Source: Erythrobacter sp. (GTDB lineage Bacteria > Pseudomonadota > Alphaproteobacteria > Sphingomonadales > Sphingomonadaceae). Taken from it: a DNA stretch of 64,000 nt. Position 1 is the stretch's first letter; every line of letters begins with the position of its first letter. Under the pieces are notes generated by a model. The model was not told the DNA's origin, did no database searches, and was given only the letters and a program-made list of their open reading frames with translations. Of the stretch, positions 53,766 through 58,487 are shown in pieces. Location: contig NZOF01000106.1 of NCBI GenBank assembly GCA_002695185.1, forward strand, positions 7,150 to 71,149, given 5' to 3'. The translations under genes were made by a program, and so were the position numbers.

Positions 53766-54002
53766 TCACAGGTCGACCCCGCTGGCGATTGCTTCCAGCT
53801 TTTTAATCCGCTCCTTCAAGTCGGCCAGCTCGATCCGGGCTGCGCCAATTGTGGATCCTTCTTCCGAACGGGGAGCCGAATGGCCCTCCAGTTCGCGGCG
53901 CTTGAGCTCAAGCCATCCCTGCCACCCTCGCAGCAAAGCTGCTGCTACGATGACTAGGCCGGTAAGGCTCGCCGCTGCAATTATGATTGTCGGCTCGAAC
54001 AT
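53766..54002 (-). CDS. Small membrane/coiled-coil protein 6 of the psp array (78 aa)
   Basis: The last and shortest member. One hydrophobic segment (about residues 5-24), then a basic turn and a charged helix. The shared motif is cut short: LKERIKKLEAIASGVDL ends the protein, matching R-[VI]-x-x-LE-x-I-[VA]-[ST] of its relatives but lacking the following helix with E-I-E-x-L-R. No domain I can name. It starts 41 bases after protein 5, the only gap of that size within the array. Confidence 0.8.
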   Translation of the reverse strand: MFEPTIIIAAASLTGLVIVAAALLRGWQGWLELKRRELEGHSAPRSEEGSTIGAARIELADLKERIKKLEAIASGVDL

Positions 54003-54043
54003 TTCCCCATGTCCTCCTTGAACCAGTGTCTATCCCTACCGCT

Positions 54044-54304
54044 TCAATCGGCCTGCTTGTCGCGCAGAGCTTCGATTTCGGCGGAAATTCTTTTTGTTTC
54101 CTGGGCGCTCGGCGAATTGCCATCCGTGGCAATCCGTTCGAGCACCTTGATGCGTTCGCGTAACTCTTCGATTTCCTGCTGGGCGACATCGTCGCGGACT
54201 TCAGGACCATGATCTTGCACGTCCTCTGCCGGTCGTGCCTTGCGCATCTGGACAATTCCCCAGACCACGATGGCCACTAGAGCTACGAGTGCCCAACCGC
54301 TCAC
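54044..54304 (-). CDS. Small membrane/coiled-coil protein 5 of the psp array (86 aa)
   Basis: One N-terminal membrane segment (ALVALVAIVVWGIVQM, then MRKAR), an acidic linker and a coiled coil with the shared motif LRERIKVLERIATDGN followed by AEIEALRDKQAD. This is the closest fit to PspB in overall plan. Start GTG 54304 overlaps the stop of protein 4 as GTGA. Function unknown; a PspB-like role at the inner membrane is inferred. Confidence 0.85.
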   Translation of the reverse strand: MSGWALVALVAIVVWGIVQMRKARPAEDVQDHGPEVRDDVAQQEIEELRERIKVLERIATDGNSPSAQETKRISAEIEALRDKQAD

Positions 54305-54597
54305 GCTGTTTTCTCCTCAGCTGCGTCCAAGAGACGCAGTTCGTCTATCTGTGACGCAAGCACGTCGTTCCTTTCGGTGGCGATGCGTTCCAACACGCGA
54401 ACACGCTCCTCCATCTTGGAGTAGTCGCCCTTGGAAAAACGCAGCTGGTCGGCTTTCGCTTCCTCTTTTCGCGCTTCAAGCTCAAGCTTGCGAGCTTCAT
54501 GTTCCTGCACGCGCTGATTTACGATGTAGGCGAATGGCAGCACCATCATGATGATCGCGAGGATAAAGCCGAATATGAGAAGGAGGTCCGGATCCAT
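54301..54597 (-). CDS. Small membrane/coiled-coil protein 4 of the psp array (98 aa)
   Basis: One membrane segment (about residues 5-26, ending in YIVNQRV), then a long charged helix rich in Glu, Lys and Arg, the motif EERVRVLERIATERND, and SQIDELRLLDAAEE. The ATG overlaps the stop of protein 3 (TGATG). No named domain, no cysteines. Confidence 0.85.
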   Translation of the reverse strand: MDPDLLLIFGFILAIIMMVLPFAYIVNQRVQEHEARKLELEARKEEAKADQLRFSKGDYSKMEERVRVLERIATERNDVLASQIDELRLLDAAEEKTA

Positions 54598-54908
54598 CAG
54601 TTCGCCTCCCGCTTGGCGCGGAGAGATTCGATCTCACTGGTAAGTTGGTATCCGCTGTCCGTGACGATCCGTTCGACATTGCCGAGCCGATCCTTGAGCG
54701 AACCCAGTTCTGCGCGCAATTCGGCGTTTTCCTGCGTGAGCAGCTTGACGCGTTCGATCGCCTGATCGTTTTTGGGGTAGATTGCCTTGCCCCAGCTGTT
54801 CTCGAGCGGATAGCCATTCTTGATCCGCAACCAGGTGGTGAAGACCCAGCCGGCAACCCCAGCAATTCCGATCACCGCAACGACTTCCGATGTGATTTCG
54901 ATAGGCAT
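54597..54908 (-). CDS. Small membrane/coiled-coil protein 3 of the psp array (103 aa)
   Basis: An N-terminal hydrophobic segment (VVAVIGIAGVAGWVFTTW) then RIKNGYPLENSWGKA, closely matching protein 2 (RAKHGYSLENEWGGM), so the two are recent duplicates. The coiled coil has LKDRLGNVERIVTDSGYQL and SEIESLRAKREAN. ATG 54908 overlaps the stop of protein 2; GTG 54911 is also possible. Confidence 0.85.
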   Translation of the reverse strand: MPIEITSEVVAVIGIAGVAGWVFTTWLRIKNGYPLENSWGKAIYPKNDQAIERVKLLTQENAELRAELGSLKDRLGNVERIVTDSGYQLTSEIESLRAKREAN

Positions 54909-55243
54909 CACGACTTCTCCGATGTCCGCGCGTTCACAGGAACGCCAGTGTGAGATGAATCGTGGCGTAGCGCTTCAATCTCTTCGCTTAGCGAATAGCC
55001 ACGATCGGTAACGATCTTCTCCAGCACCACCATGCGATCCTGCATGGTGTCGAGCTTGTCGTTCAGTTCGCGGTTCTCAGCGCGCAAGCGCTTGGTTTCC
55101 GCGGTATCAGCCGGTTCGGTCATCCCGCCCCATTCGTTCTCGAGAGAATAGCCGTGCTTGGCCCTGATCCAGTTGTTGATCAGCCATCCACCGGTACTGA
55201 CGGCGATAATGGCGATGATGAAAGAGGGGTCTCCGAAATCCAT
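54908..55243 (-). CDS. Small membrane/coiled-coil protein 2 of the psp array (111 aa)
   Basis: A membrane segment at about 8-26 (FIIAIIAVSTGGWLINNW), the RAKHGYSLENEWGG element shared with protein 3, and a coiled coil with MQDRMVVLEKIVTDRGYSL and EEIEALRHD. A polar tail follows. The start overlaps the stop of protein 1 by one base. Confidence 0.86.
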   Translation of the reverse strand: MDFGDPSFIIAIIAVSTGGWLINNWIRAKHGYSLENEWGGMTEPADTAETKRLRAENRELNDKLDTMQDRMVVLEKIVTDRGYSLSEEIEALRHDSSHTGVPVNARTSEKS

Positions 55244-55551
55244 TACGCACGCTCCCCTTGCTTGACATCCAGAGGAACGGCGCTGCCCTTGTCCTCAACT
55301 TCGCGCTGATCGCGCAGGGCCTCGATCTGGGTGGCCACATCATAACCGCGGTCAGTTACGATCCGCTCGAGAACCTGCACCCGCTGCTCCAGTTCCACGA
55401 TGCGGCTGACATGCTGTGCGGTATGTTCAGCGGTTTGAGCGGCGGTCGCTTCGATACGCTTTTCTTCCAAGGCGCGCTGGTTCTTGGACCACACAATGAA
55501 CGCTACCATCAGGAAAGGCGCCAGCGGGATCAGATATGCCCAGTCAAACAC
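55243..55551 (-). CDS. Small membrane/coiled-coil protein 1 of the psp array (102 aa)
   Basis: The first of six related small proteins. A membrane segment at about 6-21 (LIPLAPFLMVAFIVWSK), then a long helix, the motif LEQRVQVLERIVTDRGYDV and TQIEALRDQREVE. It starts 25 bases after the pspC stop. Its placement in a sigma-54-driven psp operon suggests a role in envelope-stress sensing or PspA docking; this is inference. Confidence 0.86.
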   Translation of the reverse strand: MFDWAYLIPLAPFLMVAFIVWSKNQRALEEKRIEATAAQTAEHTAQHVSRIVELEQRVQVLERIVTDRGYDVATQIEALRDQREVEDKGSAVPLDVKQGERA

Positions 55552-55576
55552 GGTATTCCCCCTTTAATAAGTTGCT

Positions 55577-55954
55577 TTACCGAAGCCGTTCGATTTCGGC
55601 ATTCAGGCGTGGATTGCTGCTGACGTAAAATGTTTCCACGTCGGCCAGGCGGCGATCGACGTCCTTCATCTTCGCGCGAATTTCGCGGGCCGTGCGCTTG
55701 GGGCTCTGGCGAACACGCTGCCAATAGCGCTGCTCGTCAGGCTCCGAGTAGAGATGGGCAGGCTTCTTGTTGAGCAGGATGCCAGCCAGGAAGTAGAACG
55801 GGATCGTCGATCCGCCGGTCATGAAGGTCAGGCCGAGAAAGCCGAGCCGAACCCAGAAGGCGTCGACGCCGGTATAGTCCGCGATGCCAGAGCAGACGCC
55901 CATCAGCTTCGCATTCTGCTTGTCACGATAGAGGGTGGTGCGGGGGCTGTTCAC
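55577..55954 (-). CDS. pspC: Phage shock protein C (PspC), with an extended coiled-coil tail
   Basis: 125 residues. The PspC domain is at the N-terminus: LYRDKQNAKLMGVCSGIADYTGVDAFWVRLGF, then the membrane segment with GGSTIPFYFLAGILL. A helical tail follows with VDRRLADVETFYVSSNPRL and ends exactly at NAEIERLR, the same element as in the small array proteins. PspC and PspB recruit PspA to the inner membrane and free PspF. GTG 55954 overlaps the pspB stop as GTGA. Confidence 0.93.
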   Translation of the reverse strand: MNSPRTTLYRDKQNAKLMGVCSGIADYTGVDAFWVRLGFLGLTFMTGGSTIPFYFLAGILLNKKPAHLYSEPDEQRYWQRVRQSPKRTAREIRAKMKDVDRRLADVETFYVSSNPRLNAEIERLR

Positions 55955-56247
55955 TGGTGAACTCCTTTTTTCTCGGCGATCAGCTGCTCTAGTTCGCGCA
56001 GCTGCTGGTTATCCTGTTCGCTGTCATGGATCAGGCGGGCGGGGCGGAAGTCGGGATTGTCGGAAGCGACAAGGCGCTCAACCGTATCCATGCGCTCATC
56101 CAGCCTTTTGGCGAGGTTGTAGAGCTCTTCGAGCAAGGCCTCGTCGTCGGTCGTGATCGTGGCGGATGTCTTCCACTTGGTTATGTAGTGAAGAACGATC
56201 CACGGCAGGGCGATGAATATCGCTACGACGGCAAATACTTCTTCCAT
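55951..56247 (-). CDS. pspB: Phage shock protein B (PspB)
   Basis: 98 residues: an N-terminal membrane segment (VFAVVAIFIALPWIVLHYI), then TKWK and a coiled coil with DEALLEELYNLAKRLDERMDTVERLV, the normal PspB core. The motif continues ASDNPDF, and a charged tail ends the protein; it is longer than enterobacterial PspB (about 75). It lies three bases after pspA and overlaps pspC. Confidence 0.93.
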   Translation of the reverse strand: MEEVFAVVAIFIALPWIVLHYITKWKTSATITTDDEALLEELYNLAKRLDERMDTVERLVASDNPDFRPARLIHDSEQDNQQLRELEQLIAEKKGVHQ

Positions 56248-56250
56248 GGA

Positions 56251-56943
56251 TCAGCCCTCCTTCTCGGCGCTGTCTGTCTTGCCGAGCGCCTTCTTCATTT
56301 GTGCCAGTTCGTCATCGATCGCATCGGCGCCTTCCAGCGCGGCGATCTCGTCGGATAAGCTTGGTTTTGCCGAACCGTCCGAAATGCTCAGTGCATCCGC
56401 ACGCCCTTCGGCATAGTCGACGCGTCGCTCAAGCTGGTCGAACCGGCTCAAGGCATCGTCCACACGCTCTTCCGTCATCAGACTGCGCAGCTTCACGCGG
56501 TTTTCCGCGCTTTCCAAGCGTGCCGCGATTGCGGTCTGCCGACTGCGAGCCTCGCGCAAGCGGTTCTGCAGCTTGGTGATGTCCTGCTCGTAAGCGCGCA
56601 GCGCATCATCAAGAACTGCGATTTCCTGCTTGAGCTGGTCAGCCATATCGACTGCCTTCTTCTTCTCTACCAAAGCCGCGCGGGCGAGGTCTTCACGATC
56701 CTTCGAGAGCGCAAGCTGGGCCTTCTCGCCCCAATCGGCCTGCAGCTTGTCCAGCTTCACCGTATGGCGATGCATTTCTTTCTGGTCGGCGATGGTGCGC
56801 GCAGCGCTGGCGCGAACTTCGACAAGGGTTTCCTCCATTTCGAGGATGATCATGCGGATCATCTTCTGGGGATCATCCGCCTTATCGAGCATATCGTTGA
56901 AATTGGCCGCGATGATATCGCGGGTACGGCTGAATATTCCCAT
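56251..56943 (-). CDS. pspA: Phage shock protein A (PspA), membrane-stress effector and PspF inhibitor
   Basis: 230 residues from ATG 56943, with GGAG eight bases upstream. It has the amphipathic N-terminal helix MGIFSRTRDIIAANFND, DDPQKMIRMIILEMEETLVEVR and long coiled coils typical of the PspA/IM30 family, ending in an acidic tail. PspA binds PspF in the resting cell and oligomerises on damaged membranes. The same frame is open for 71 more codons to a GTG at 57156 that overlaps the stop of the preceding 50-residue gene; a longer PspA form is possible (see findings). Confidence 0.93.
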   Translation of the reverse strand: MGIFSRTRDIIAANFNDMLDKADDPQKMIRMIILEMEETLVEVRASAARTIADQKEMHRHTVKLDKLQADWGEKAQLALSKDREDLARAALVEKKKAVDMADQLKQEIAVLDDALRAYEQDITKLQNRLREARSRQTAIAARLESAENRVKLRSLMTEERVDDALSRFDQLERRVDYAEGRADALSISDGSAKPSLSDEIAALEGADAIDDELAQMKKALGKTDSAEKEG

Positions 56944-57152
56944 TAAAGGTGCTCCACTGGAGAAAAAGTCTGCGCCCCGATTGCGGGGTTTGTCCTGGGT
57001 CGGAGTAGGCGAACGGCGGAGCCGTTCAACTTCGCTATCGAGACGAGACAAGGTTACCCGTTCGGGGCGGGCCGAAGCGCCGTTTTGCCGAGACGCGTGC
57101 TCGGACTCTTCGGGGACGAGGCGCTCCGGCCCAAGGGGATGCTTGTGATTGG

Positions 57153-57305
57153 TCACGCTATTTCCATCTGCTGGATCGATGCCACCATCGGCATCGGGGT
57201 GGCGACTGTGATCTGCGAACTCAAAGCGACGAATGCAGTCATCATAGCCACGCTTGCAAGGGCGGCTTTGCCGAGGGTCGTGCTGAAGAACTTGCGATCG
57301 TACAT
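57153..57305 (-). CDS. Leader membrane peptide of the psp operon (50 aa)
   Basis: I read ATG 57305 to TGA 57155-57153. GGGAGG lies eight bases upstream, a good ribosome site. The peptide has a basic start (MYDRKFFS), a hydrophobic stretch from about residue 12 to 30 (KAALASVAMMTAFVALSSQ) and a tail with several Met (TPMPMV, IQQME). It could be a single-span membrane protein or an exported peptide. It is the first frame after the sigma-54 promoter. Its stop overlaps the upstream in-frame GTG of pspA as GTGA. No family recognised. Confidence 0.7.
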   Translation of the reverse strand: MYDRKFFSTTLGKAALASVAMMTAFVALSSQITVATPMPMVASIQQMEIA

Positions 57306-57345
57306 GGTGTCCTCCCTGGACGTGAATTTATGTTACCCCCTATTC

Positions 57346-57361
57346 AGCAACGACCGTGCCA
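57346..57361 (-). promoter_or_regulatory. Sigma-54 (RpoN) promoter of the psp operon
   Basis: On the minus strand the sequence is TGGCACGGTCGTTGCT, an exact match to the -24/-12 consensus TGGCACG-N4-TTGCW. The expected transcription start is near 57335, about 30 bases before the 50-residue leader gene. PspF, an enhancer-binding protein for sigma-54, is encoded divergently; its sites should lie in 57362-57461. Confidence 0.92.
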
Positions 57362-57461
57362 AAGTCGTGTAGGCGCGGAAAACCTCCAATTTTATGGCCT
57401 CGCTCCACATCGGGGTTGGTGGCTATTGCCAAGCCTTGGGGAAATTTCCTATGTCTTGGCT

Positions 57462-58487
57462 ATGGAGCGTGAAAACCAGTTCATCGGGCAGTCCGGTGCC
57501 TTTCTCGACGCAGTTGAGCGGGCGAGTAGAGCCGCGCCTATGCGCAGGCCCGTCCTCGTTATCGGTGAGAGGGGTACCGGGAAGGAGTTGATCGCCGAGC
57601 GCCTCCACCGCCTGTCCACGCGTTGGGGCGAGCCATTGGTAACGATGAATTGCGCCGCACTGCCGGAAACCCTCATCGAAGCCGAATTGTTCGGACACGA
57701 AGCTGGGGCGTTCACAGGCGCAACCAAACAGCGTGTGGGACGGTTCGAGGAGGCCGACAAGGGAACCCTCTTTCTTGACGAATTGGGCACACTTTCCATG
57801 GGCGCCCAGGAGCGTCTTTTGCGAGCTGTCGAATACGGAGAGGTTACGCGGATCGGATCTTCCCGCCCAGTCAGAGTGGACGTACGGATCGTTGCCGCCA
57901 CCAATGAAGATCTTCCGGACAAGGCGAGGCGGGGTGAATTTCGGTCCGACCTTCTCGATCGCCTCAGTTTTGAGGTAATCACTTTGCCGCCTCTGCGCGT
58001 GCGCGAAGGAGACATCGAAGTACTGGCGGATTATTTCGGCAGACGGATGGGGGCTGAACTCGGATGGGAAGCTTGGCCAGGCTTCGCCGATCATGTGGCG
58101 GAGCAGCTGGAGAAGCACCTCTGGCCCGGTAATGTGCGTGAATTGCGAAATGTAGTAGAGCGCGCGGTATATAGATGGGACGATTGGTCAAATCCAATCG
58201 GGCATGTCGTTTTCGATCCATTCGACAGCCCATGGAAGCCCGCACCGATGCCTTCGGCAGCAGCTGCTGGCAGGGATCAAGCGGCTTCGGAGGTGATCGA
58301 TGATGGACTTCAGCTGGATGAGATCGACGATCTGAAGGCTGCTGTCGATTCCCATGAAAAGGCGATTCTCGAGCATGCGCTGGGCAAGCATAGGTGGAAT
58401 CAGCGCCAGACTGCGAAGGCACTCGGATTGAGCTATGATCAGTTGCGCCATGCAATAAAGAAGCACGGCCTTACAGATTCCGACTGA
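57462..58487 (+). CDS. pspF: psp operon activator PspF (sigma-54 enhancer-binding AAA+ ATPase)
   Basis: 341 residues, starting directly with the AAA+ domain (no receiver domain), as PspF does. Walker A is GERGTGKE; the sigma-54 contact loop GAFTGA is in FGHEAGAFTGATK; Walker B is LFLDE; VRIVAATNEDL and LWPGNVRELRN follow. The C-terminal Fis-type helix-turn-helix is HRWNQRQTAKALGLSYDQLRHAIKK. ATG 57462 is the family start. It is divergent from the psp operon and is held inactive by PspA in unstressed cells. Confidence 0.95.
   Translation: MERENQFIGQSGAFLDAVERASRAAPMRRPVLVIGERGTGKELIAERLHRLSTRWGEPLVTMNCAALPETLIEAELFGHEAGAFTGATKQRVGRFEEADKGTLFLDELGTLSMGAQERLLRAVEYGEVTRIGSSRPVRVDVRIVAATNEDLPDKARRGEFRSDLLDRLSFEVITLPPLRVREGDIEVLADYFGRRMGAELGWEAWPGFADHVAEQLEKHLWPGNVRELRNVVERAVYRWDDWSNPIGHVVFDPFDSPWKPAPMPSAAAAGRDQAASEVIDDGLQLDEIDDLKAAVDSHEKAILEHALGKHRWNQRQTAKALGLSYDQLRHAIKKHGLTDSD

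Follow-up and report, generated by a model that had tools for sequence, protein, structure and literature searches.

A conserved array of predicted small membrane proteins, most with PspB/PspC-like tails, behind pspC in an Erythrobacter psp operon

The Psp system is a well studied membrane-stress response. In the stretch of Erythrobacter sp. DNA analysed here (hereafter referred to as the window; 64,000 nucleotides of contig NZOF01000106.1), pspA, pspB and pspC are followed by six small genes, hereafter referred to as X1 to X6. We propose, with a probability of about 0.6, that these genes encode PspB/PspC-type membrane adaptors for PspA, as a set specific to this lineage, the binding of PspA being argued from Escherichia coli and Yersinia. 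Judged by their sequences, the products of X1 to X5 can be firmly assigned as small bitopic membrane proteins of PspB/PspC type, and the X6 product is likely to be another. The basis obtained for this proposal consists of homology, gene order, conservation, predicted topology and lineage distribution. In one bacterial order, the psp operon has been enlarged by as many as eight additional small membrane proteins, with tails resembling those by which the regular sensor proteins would hold PspA, and these cells may possess a whole set of membrane sensors, versus two in E. coli.

The array in the window

The genes are transcribed from the minus strand in the order gene Y (see below), pspA, pspB, pspC and X1 to X6, with pspF divergent. 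The region from pspB to X6 is organized as follows (aa, amino acids).

55951..56247, minus strand: pspB (PF06667, 9.7e-22; TIGR02976, 8.7e-27)
55577..55954, minus strand: pspC with C-terminal tail (PF04024, 3.8e-19; TIGR02978, 3.8e-36)
55243..55551, minus strand: X1, 102 aa, PspB-like membrane protein (predicted), tail RVQVLERIVTD...QIEALRD
54908..55243, minus strand: X2, 111 aa, membrane segment, GYSLENEWGG loop and tail
54597..54911, minus strand: X3, 104 aa, membrane segment, GYPLENSWG loop, coiled coil and tail
54301..54597, minus strand: X4, 98 aa, membrane segment and tail
54044..54304, minus strand: X5, 86 aa, membrane segment and tail; similar to singleton relatives, with which it was aligned
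53766..54002, minus strand: X6, 78 aa, membrane segment and C-terminal AARIELADLKERIKKLEAIASGVDL, half tail only

These data verify the preliminary description, in which six genes of 78–111 aa had been placed 3' of pspABC on the same strand, with four overlaps of one or four bases: X1/X2 and X3/X4 overlap by 1 base, and X2/X3 and X4/X5 by 4 bases, with gaps of 25 bases between pspC and X1 and 41 bases between X5 and X6. The motif attributed in that description to the operon proteins (R-[VILM]-x-x-[LV]-E-[RKA]-I-[VA]-[TS]-[DEG]) was matched by six of the 1197 open reading frames (ORFs) of at least 30 aa in the window, these being X1–X6 with one match each, and by 0/20,000 composition shuffles of each of the six. 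A regular-expression scan gave no match to the literal motif in the PspB and PspC of the window, to which it had also been ascribed. The continuation [EQ]-I-[ED]-x-L, claimed for most of the array proteins, was found in X1–X5 and is absent from X6.

Conservation and gene order

Genome contigs were searched with PspC, the best 80 of 90 relatives were used, and the window constituted the 81st locus; a PspC query samples only genomes with pspC, the genomes concerned are close relatives, and kinship inflates all counts. According to their titles, the relatives were mostly Qipengyuania, Erythrobacter, Altererythrobacter and Pontixanthobacter, with some Tsuneonella, Croceibacterium and Novosphingobium; Qipengyuania and Croceibacterium belong to the Erythrobacteraceae (Sphingomonadales). 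Genes were called in this analysis by a gene chain favouring frames with a loose form of the motif and starts near the previous stop. The presence of the motif in 408 of 422 chained array genes and the overlaps at array junctions (4 bases at 145/341, 1 base at 114/341) are not fully independent of these preferences. For the tree and later counts, 420 genes were used, after removal of two wrong-frame genes (L063 gene 5 and L078 gene 4).

Array genes were located 3' of pspC in 80/80 of the fetched loci, with two to eight genes per locus over the 81 loci; the two-gene locus (L079) ends near a locus end. The 420-gene tree resolved six groups, one per window gene, with five genes ungrouped. The X1 group contains 87 genes from 80/81 loci, the X4 group 63 genes from 62/81 loci, and the groups of X2, X3, X5 and X6 are represented in 37, 74, 76 and 78 of the 81 loci, respectively. 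The order X1 to X6 was broken in just three loci (L043, L065 and L077). The series X1-X3-X4-X5-X6 was found in 24 loci and the complete set in 21, and extra copies of X1 or X4 occur. Among 20 genomes hand-picked for several profile matches (see below), all 20 had 3–6 X genes after pspC, and conservation of the array next to pspC, which had been named as a check on the original proposal, was thus observed in both samples. The median ratio of nonsynonymous to synonymous substitution rates (dN/dS) was 0.34–0.70 across the six X groups, versus 0.13 for PspA; the X genes are kept, yet fast-evolving. A phage, plasmid or mobile origin was rejected, since the array is kept beside pspC; a plasmid search with X3 returned a single match, which was partial, to an 880-kb replicon from Sphingomonas.

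Predicted topology

A mean Kyte-Doolittle hydropathy of 1.6 over 19 residues was reached by 389 of the 420 array genes, and a second segment passing this threshold was found in 0/420. Lysine and arginine residues were more numerous after the membrane segment than before it in 416/420 genes, and the tails are therefore predicted to be cytoplasmic. Hydropathy and charge are consistent with the single N-terminal membrane segment per protein initially described. AlphaFold2 predicted two helices for X3 (8–32 and 49–103; mean predicted local distance difference test score 76, predicted template modelling score (pTM) 0.35); single-chain models of X1 (pTM 0.28) and X3 consisted of one or two helices, with low confidence. 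The predictions from hydropathy, charge and these models agree with a PspB-type architecture, with one N-terminal membrane helix and a cytoplasmic helical domain. Conservation was higher in the tail than in the rest of the protein for X1, X3, X4, X5 and X6, and hardly so for X2 (0.76 vs 0.74). X2 and X3 (54908–55243 and 54597–54911) have a juxtamembrane loop, GY[PS]LExxWG, in common, largely invariant in the aligned orthologs.

Relationship of the tails to PspC and PspB

A profile of X1–X5 tails (334 tails, 121 after the removal of similar ones, 106 used by hhalign) was compared with the PspC tails and PspB sequences of 22 loci without a visible X gene beside pspC, plus those of E. coli, and 150 column shuffles preserving heptad position provided the null distribution. 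The X tails matched the PspC tails end-to-end over 39 columns, with a score of 26.8 (E 4.5e-5), against a shuffle maximum of 16.5, and matched PspB with a score of 24.6 (E 1.1e-4), against a maximum of 19.1; in both comparisons, 0/150 shuffles reached the real score. A scan of 84 array members against 18,950 NCBIfam models (E 0.01) gave 33 matches to TIGR02978 (PspC) and 13 to TIGR02976 (PspB), with seven for the next family. A PspC-type tail, corresponding to TIGR02978 positions about 74–121, was thus recognized both in these 33 members and in the profile comparison.

Like the X proteins, PspB (PF06667/TIGR02976) has one N-terminal membrane helix, a cytoplasmic coiled coil, an LE[RS]I core and a place in the same operon. 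Its ending, ILDxExPxWR, is not found in the X proteins of the window, and X1–X5 instead end in a PspC-like V/A-T-D/E...EIExLR. The Pfam scan did not detect the PspC domain PF04024, a feature of PspC, in any of X1–X6 of the window.

Two genomes of the class sample (G466 and G371), outside the 196 order genomes described below, carry pspABC followed by two small genes. In G466, one of these genes (L119:1465-1686) encodes a protein scoring 39.3 bits with the Pfam PspB model, above its cut-off of 25.6; this protein is 43% identical over 67 aa to the PspB encoded in the same operon, and its alignment with an X1 protein gives 42% identity over 59 aa. This bridge protein resembles both, and X1 is therefore tied to PspB across the membrane segment and the tail. 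Homology to PspB is accordingly seen for X1 through this intermediate and for the tails of X1–X5 by profile. The other small gene of G466 has a PspC-type tail, with 47% identity over 43 aa to that of the neighbouring PspC.

The original proposal that a PspB-like unit had been expanded is supported by the comparison with the heptad null, by the bridge protein and by the retention of the array beside pspC. The accompanying statement that eight proteins have one tail module is not supported in that form: the literal motif is absent from PspB and PspC, to which the tails of X1–X5 are related at profile level, and X6 has half a tail, its kinship to the PspB/PspC tails being suggestive only.

Distribution in the order and class

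Of 196 genomes sampled from the order, 168 had a match to the X1 profile and 118 had more than one, versus a match in only 7 of 289 genomes sampled from the class; the two samples overlap, and four of these seven genomes occur in both. With a second profile, made from singletons, matches were obtained in 5/289 class genomes, all within the same seven. Among 30 loci fetched with PspB from genomes with single, weak or no matches, 22 had no X gene beside pspC, four had one, three had two and one had no PspC in the stretch; these loci cover about 3.2 kb, and later genes may be cut off. PspB was matched in 31/289 class genomes (30 over the cut-off), including all seven with an X match. In 36 order genomes, PspB was found in 28/28 with an X match versus 3/8 without one.

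Several relatives (L183–L186) carry a single X gene behind pspC and a second, short PspC; the X gene is followed by an ORF resembling, by eye, an L,D-transpeptidase. X-like genes also occur as orphans, the surroundings of which were inspected up to about 1.5 kb on each side. The orphans (L187–L201) encode proteins of about 70–115 aa consisting of a membrane segment and a tail, the end of which resembles LERIATDKxxxLxDEIDxL; a tandem pair occurs in L199. A psp locus is known elsewhere in 14 of the 15 genomes concerned, and a second X-like gene lies inside it in three of those. In one class genome (G379), two adjacent small X-like genes (L180:5227-5709) are located about 81 kb from pspB.

Proposed function and alternative explanations

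The same kind of tail is found on different membrane segments, and the X proteins may therefore be extra PspA adaptors or sensors. Each has a membrane helix predicted to be N-out, a linker particular to the gene, and a coiled-coil tail, predicted to be cytoplasmic, with homology to the C-terminal tail of PspC and the cytoplasmic domain of PspB that is suggestive only for X6. The tails would join the coiled-coil network of the PspC tail, binding PspA, pairing with the PspB and PspC tails, or both. The differing helices and linkers would respond to different membrane disturbances, or would set the number or placement of PspA anchor points. A single sigma-54 promoter-like site beside pspF precedes pspA, pspB, pspC and the X genes, and the X products would probably be made in step through coupled translation. 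In E. coli, PspC 40–119, or 69–119 plus PspB, interacts with PspA in a leucine zipper-dependent manner (PMC3068692). By analogy, the X proteins could dock to PspA or PspC or form a hetero-oligomeric sensor, the two roles guessed at in the preliminary description; their co-expression, PspA binding, division of labour and stress induction are likewise inferred. In a paralog series with a common tail and differing membrane parts, evolution would have separated sensing from PspA binding; this natural series therefore makes the question of damage sensing by PspB and PspC directly testable.

Several observations weigh against this proposal. The E-values of the profile matches are modest, with probabilities of 41% and 28% over 39–44 columns. 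Compared directly, PspB and the PspC tails scored only 13.4 with hhalign (the shuffle null applies to X-tail pairs only), and the X tails therefore connect families that are only distantly similar to each other. In X6, no more than the proximal half of the tail is present (17 columns with X1 in hhalign, probability 30%). Each of the six window proteins falls below every curated Pfam and NCBIfam cut-off: the best PspB scores were 18.6 bits against a cut-off of 51.7 for X1 (TIGR02976) and 11.8 against 25.6 for X4 (PF06667), and all TIGR02978 matches of these six were under the model cut-off of 104 bits. The co-occurrence of X genes and PspB is confounded by descent, with four of the seven class genomes also in the order sample. 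X-like orphans were found away from psp in 15/15 genomes chosen for few or weak matches, and a strict sigma-54 site was found upstream of 0/15 orphans (a looser pattern upstream of 1/15, 0.3 expected); a function of the tail outside Psp is therefore possible as well. In E. coli, PspA contact has been reported for PspC only, not for PspB, and a periplasmic position or two topologies have been discussed for the PspC tail (PMC3068692).

It is unlikely that the X proteins act instead as decoys, their tails pairing with the tails of PspC and PspB and setting the threshold of the response, with no PspA anchoring or sensing. Their tails are about as PspB-like as PspC-like (24.6 vs 26.8), and PspB is reported to silence PspC in Yersinia; a 2016 article by Flores-Kim and Darwin is said, by its title, to ascribe silencing of the response to interactions between the cytoplasmic domains of PspB and PspC. 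Nevertheless, decoys would have no obvious need for five or six kinds in a nearly fixed order, with differing membrane segments and linkers.

We also regard as decidedly improbable the capture into the psp operon of a general family of small membrane coiled-coil scaffolds with a role not limited to PspA, for example in organizing the membrane locally. The orphans away from psp, with no strict sigma-54 site upstream, would fit such a family, as would the lack of a Pfam family covering the six window proteins over its cut-off, whereas the occurrence of PspB in 7/7 class genomes with an X match, its distribution in the order genomes (28/28 vs 3/8) and the relatives with a single copy inside the psp operon, 3' of pspC and of a second, short pspC, are not expected of it. 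Membership of the orphan genes in the PspF regulon was not supported, with a strict site in none of the 15. In E. coli, pspG is a PspF-regulon gene lying apart.

Generic coiled-coil resemblance between unrelated small membrane genes lying beside pspC by chance, named at the outset as what would refute the proposal, can be rejected as extremely improbable: these are short helical proteins, none of which reaches a family cut-off by itself, and comparably weak E-values were obtained with further families of coiled coils, ZapB among them, but heptad-preserving shuffles never reached the tail scores against PspC or PspB (0/150), these two families lead among the NCBIfam models, the motif has only six matches in the window, and a bridge protein exists.

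Comparison with described systems

PspB duplicates in the psp operon are the subject of one sentence in the available text of Ravi et al. 2024 (PMC11237479), with AOL22920.1 as an example; that text contains no six-ortholog array, tail analysis or PspA extension. It also describes a fusion of PspC, at its C-terminus, to a divergent PspB, in agreement with a tail common to both families. Judging by titles, this was the only one of the articles retrieved on PspB-like or duplicate proteins to concern PspB duplicates, and the matches listed for the Sphingomonas, Erythrobacter and Novosphingobium literature included no analysis of such an array; one of them, on Novosphingobium genomes, mentions PspC once. 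The words Alphaproteobacteria, Sphingo- and Erythrobacter are absent from the main text of a survey (PMC9239133), as far as it was available. The preliminary statement, to the effect that its author knew of no described system with this composition, has to be qualified for PspB duplicates. Searches of solved structures returned none for PspC at E 0.1 and, for the X1 profile, just four weak matches, all of them to helical chains of unrelated proteins and none with an E-value better than 0.31.

Small extra Psp proteins are also known in E. coli, in which PspD and PspG belong to the PspF regulon; in this respect, the X proteins would be like them. PspG is an inner-membrane effector (PMC3068692). 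The named relatives of X3 (best 120 of 8000 listed) have the product names hypothetical or uncharacterized, and X1–X6 of the window score below all curated cut-offs; automatic annotation therefore misses these proteins.

Promoter region, gene Y and PspA N-terminal extension

The upstream part of the operon contains the following features, of which gene Y, the PspA extension and the sigma-54 site add to the preliminary description.

57462..58487, plus strand: pspF, divergently oriented gene of a sigma-54 activator (start deduced from the sequence), within ORF 57330–58487; NtrC-kind AAA+ sequence judged by eye
57346..57361, minus strand: TGGCAC-N5-TTGCT, sigma-54 promoter-like site facing the operon, sole match in 64 kb
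57153..57305, minus strand: gene Y, with which the operon begins; translated ORF of 50 aa with a single hydrophobic segment
56251..57156, minus strand: pspA long frame, 301 aa, 71-aa N-terminal extension and canonical PspA (TIGR02977 equivalog, 2.5e-83)
56251..56945, minus strand: pspA core from an internal ATG (MGIFSRT...), first base of the ATG 56943 (within 2 bases), with its own Shine-Dalgarno-like sequence

The setting is that of a PspF/sigma-54 operon, with a -24/-12 promoter-like site upstream and pspF adjoining. The site is unique in the window (0.10 expected), and a looser sigma-54 pattern was found up to 200 bases upstream of gene Y in 68/75 loci. Between 52800 and 57600, there was no sigma-70-like site (1.7 expected) and there were eight terminator-like sites (5.3 expected), one of them on the operon strand, inside pspC.

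Gene Y, present in 75/81 loci including the window, encodes a membrane or exported 50-aa peptide and is preceded by a Shine-Dalgarno-like sequence in 71/75 loci. The PspA extension (71 aa, 56943–57156, minus strand) starts at a GTG overlapping the Y stop codon by 4 bases. An in-frame start near the Y stop was found in 73/75 loci, with a 4-base overlap in 64. The spacing between the Y stop codon and the MGIF start codon takes 31 lengths (134–289 bases) and keeps the same phase in 73/75 loci. The internal ATG has a Shine-Dalgarno-like sequence in 75/75 loci, versus 15% in random windows, and the upstream start in only 11/73, the random-window level. Because the extension frame stays in phase and the internal ATG has a conserved Shine-Dalgarno-like sequence, two forms of PspA are likely to be made: the canonical one and a long form, the latter through translation coupled to that of Y. 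The extension has a median dN/dS of 0.59, which weakly supports its being coding. Helix alpha-0 is the membrane-binding part of PspA (PMC12358876), and an extension directly before it could tune membrane binding.

It is possible, although doubtful, that the Sphingomonadales have a combinatorial Psp response, in which three to eight adaptors, each with its own membrane-sensing helix and linker and a common PspA-engaging tail, would bring PspA to membrane damage of different kinds. In Erythrobacteraceae-type loci, this would be combined with two forms of PspA, one canonical and one with a low-complexity N-terminal extension before the membrane-curving helix.

In loci L159–L178, the frame closes within 45 codons upstream in 12 of the 19 loci in which a PspA start was found; by eye, L174 has a shorter extension of like kind. 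In the relatives, the extension has the form DPLGPER...SRLDxEVERLRxSPTPT..., and 53 proteins of a large database match it, including that of the window.

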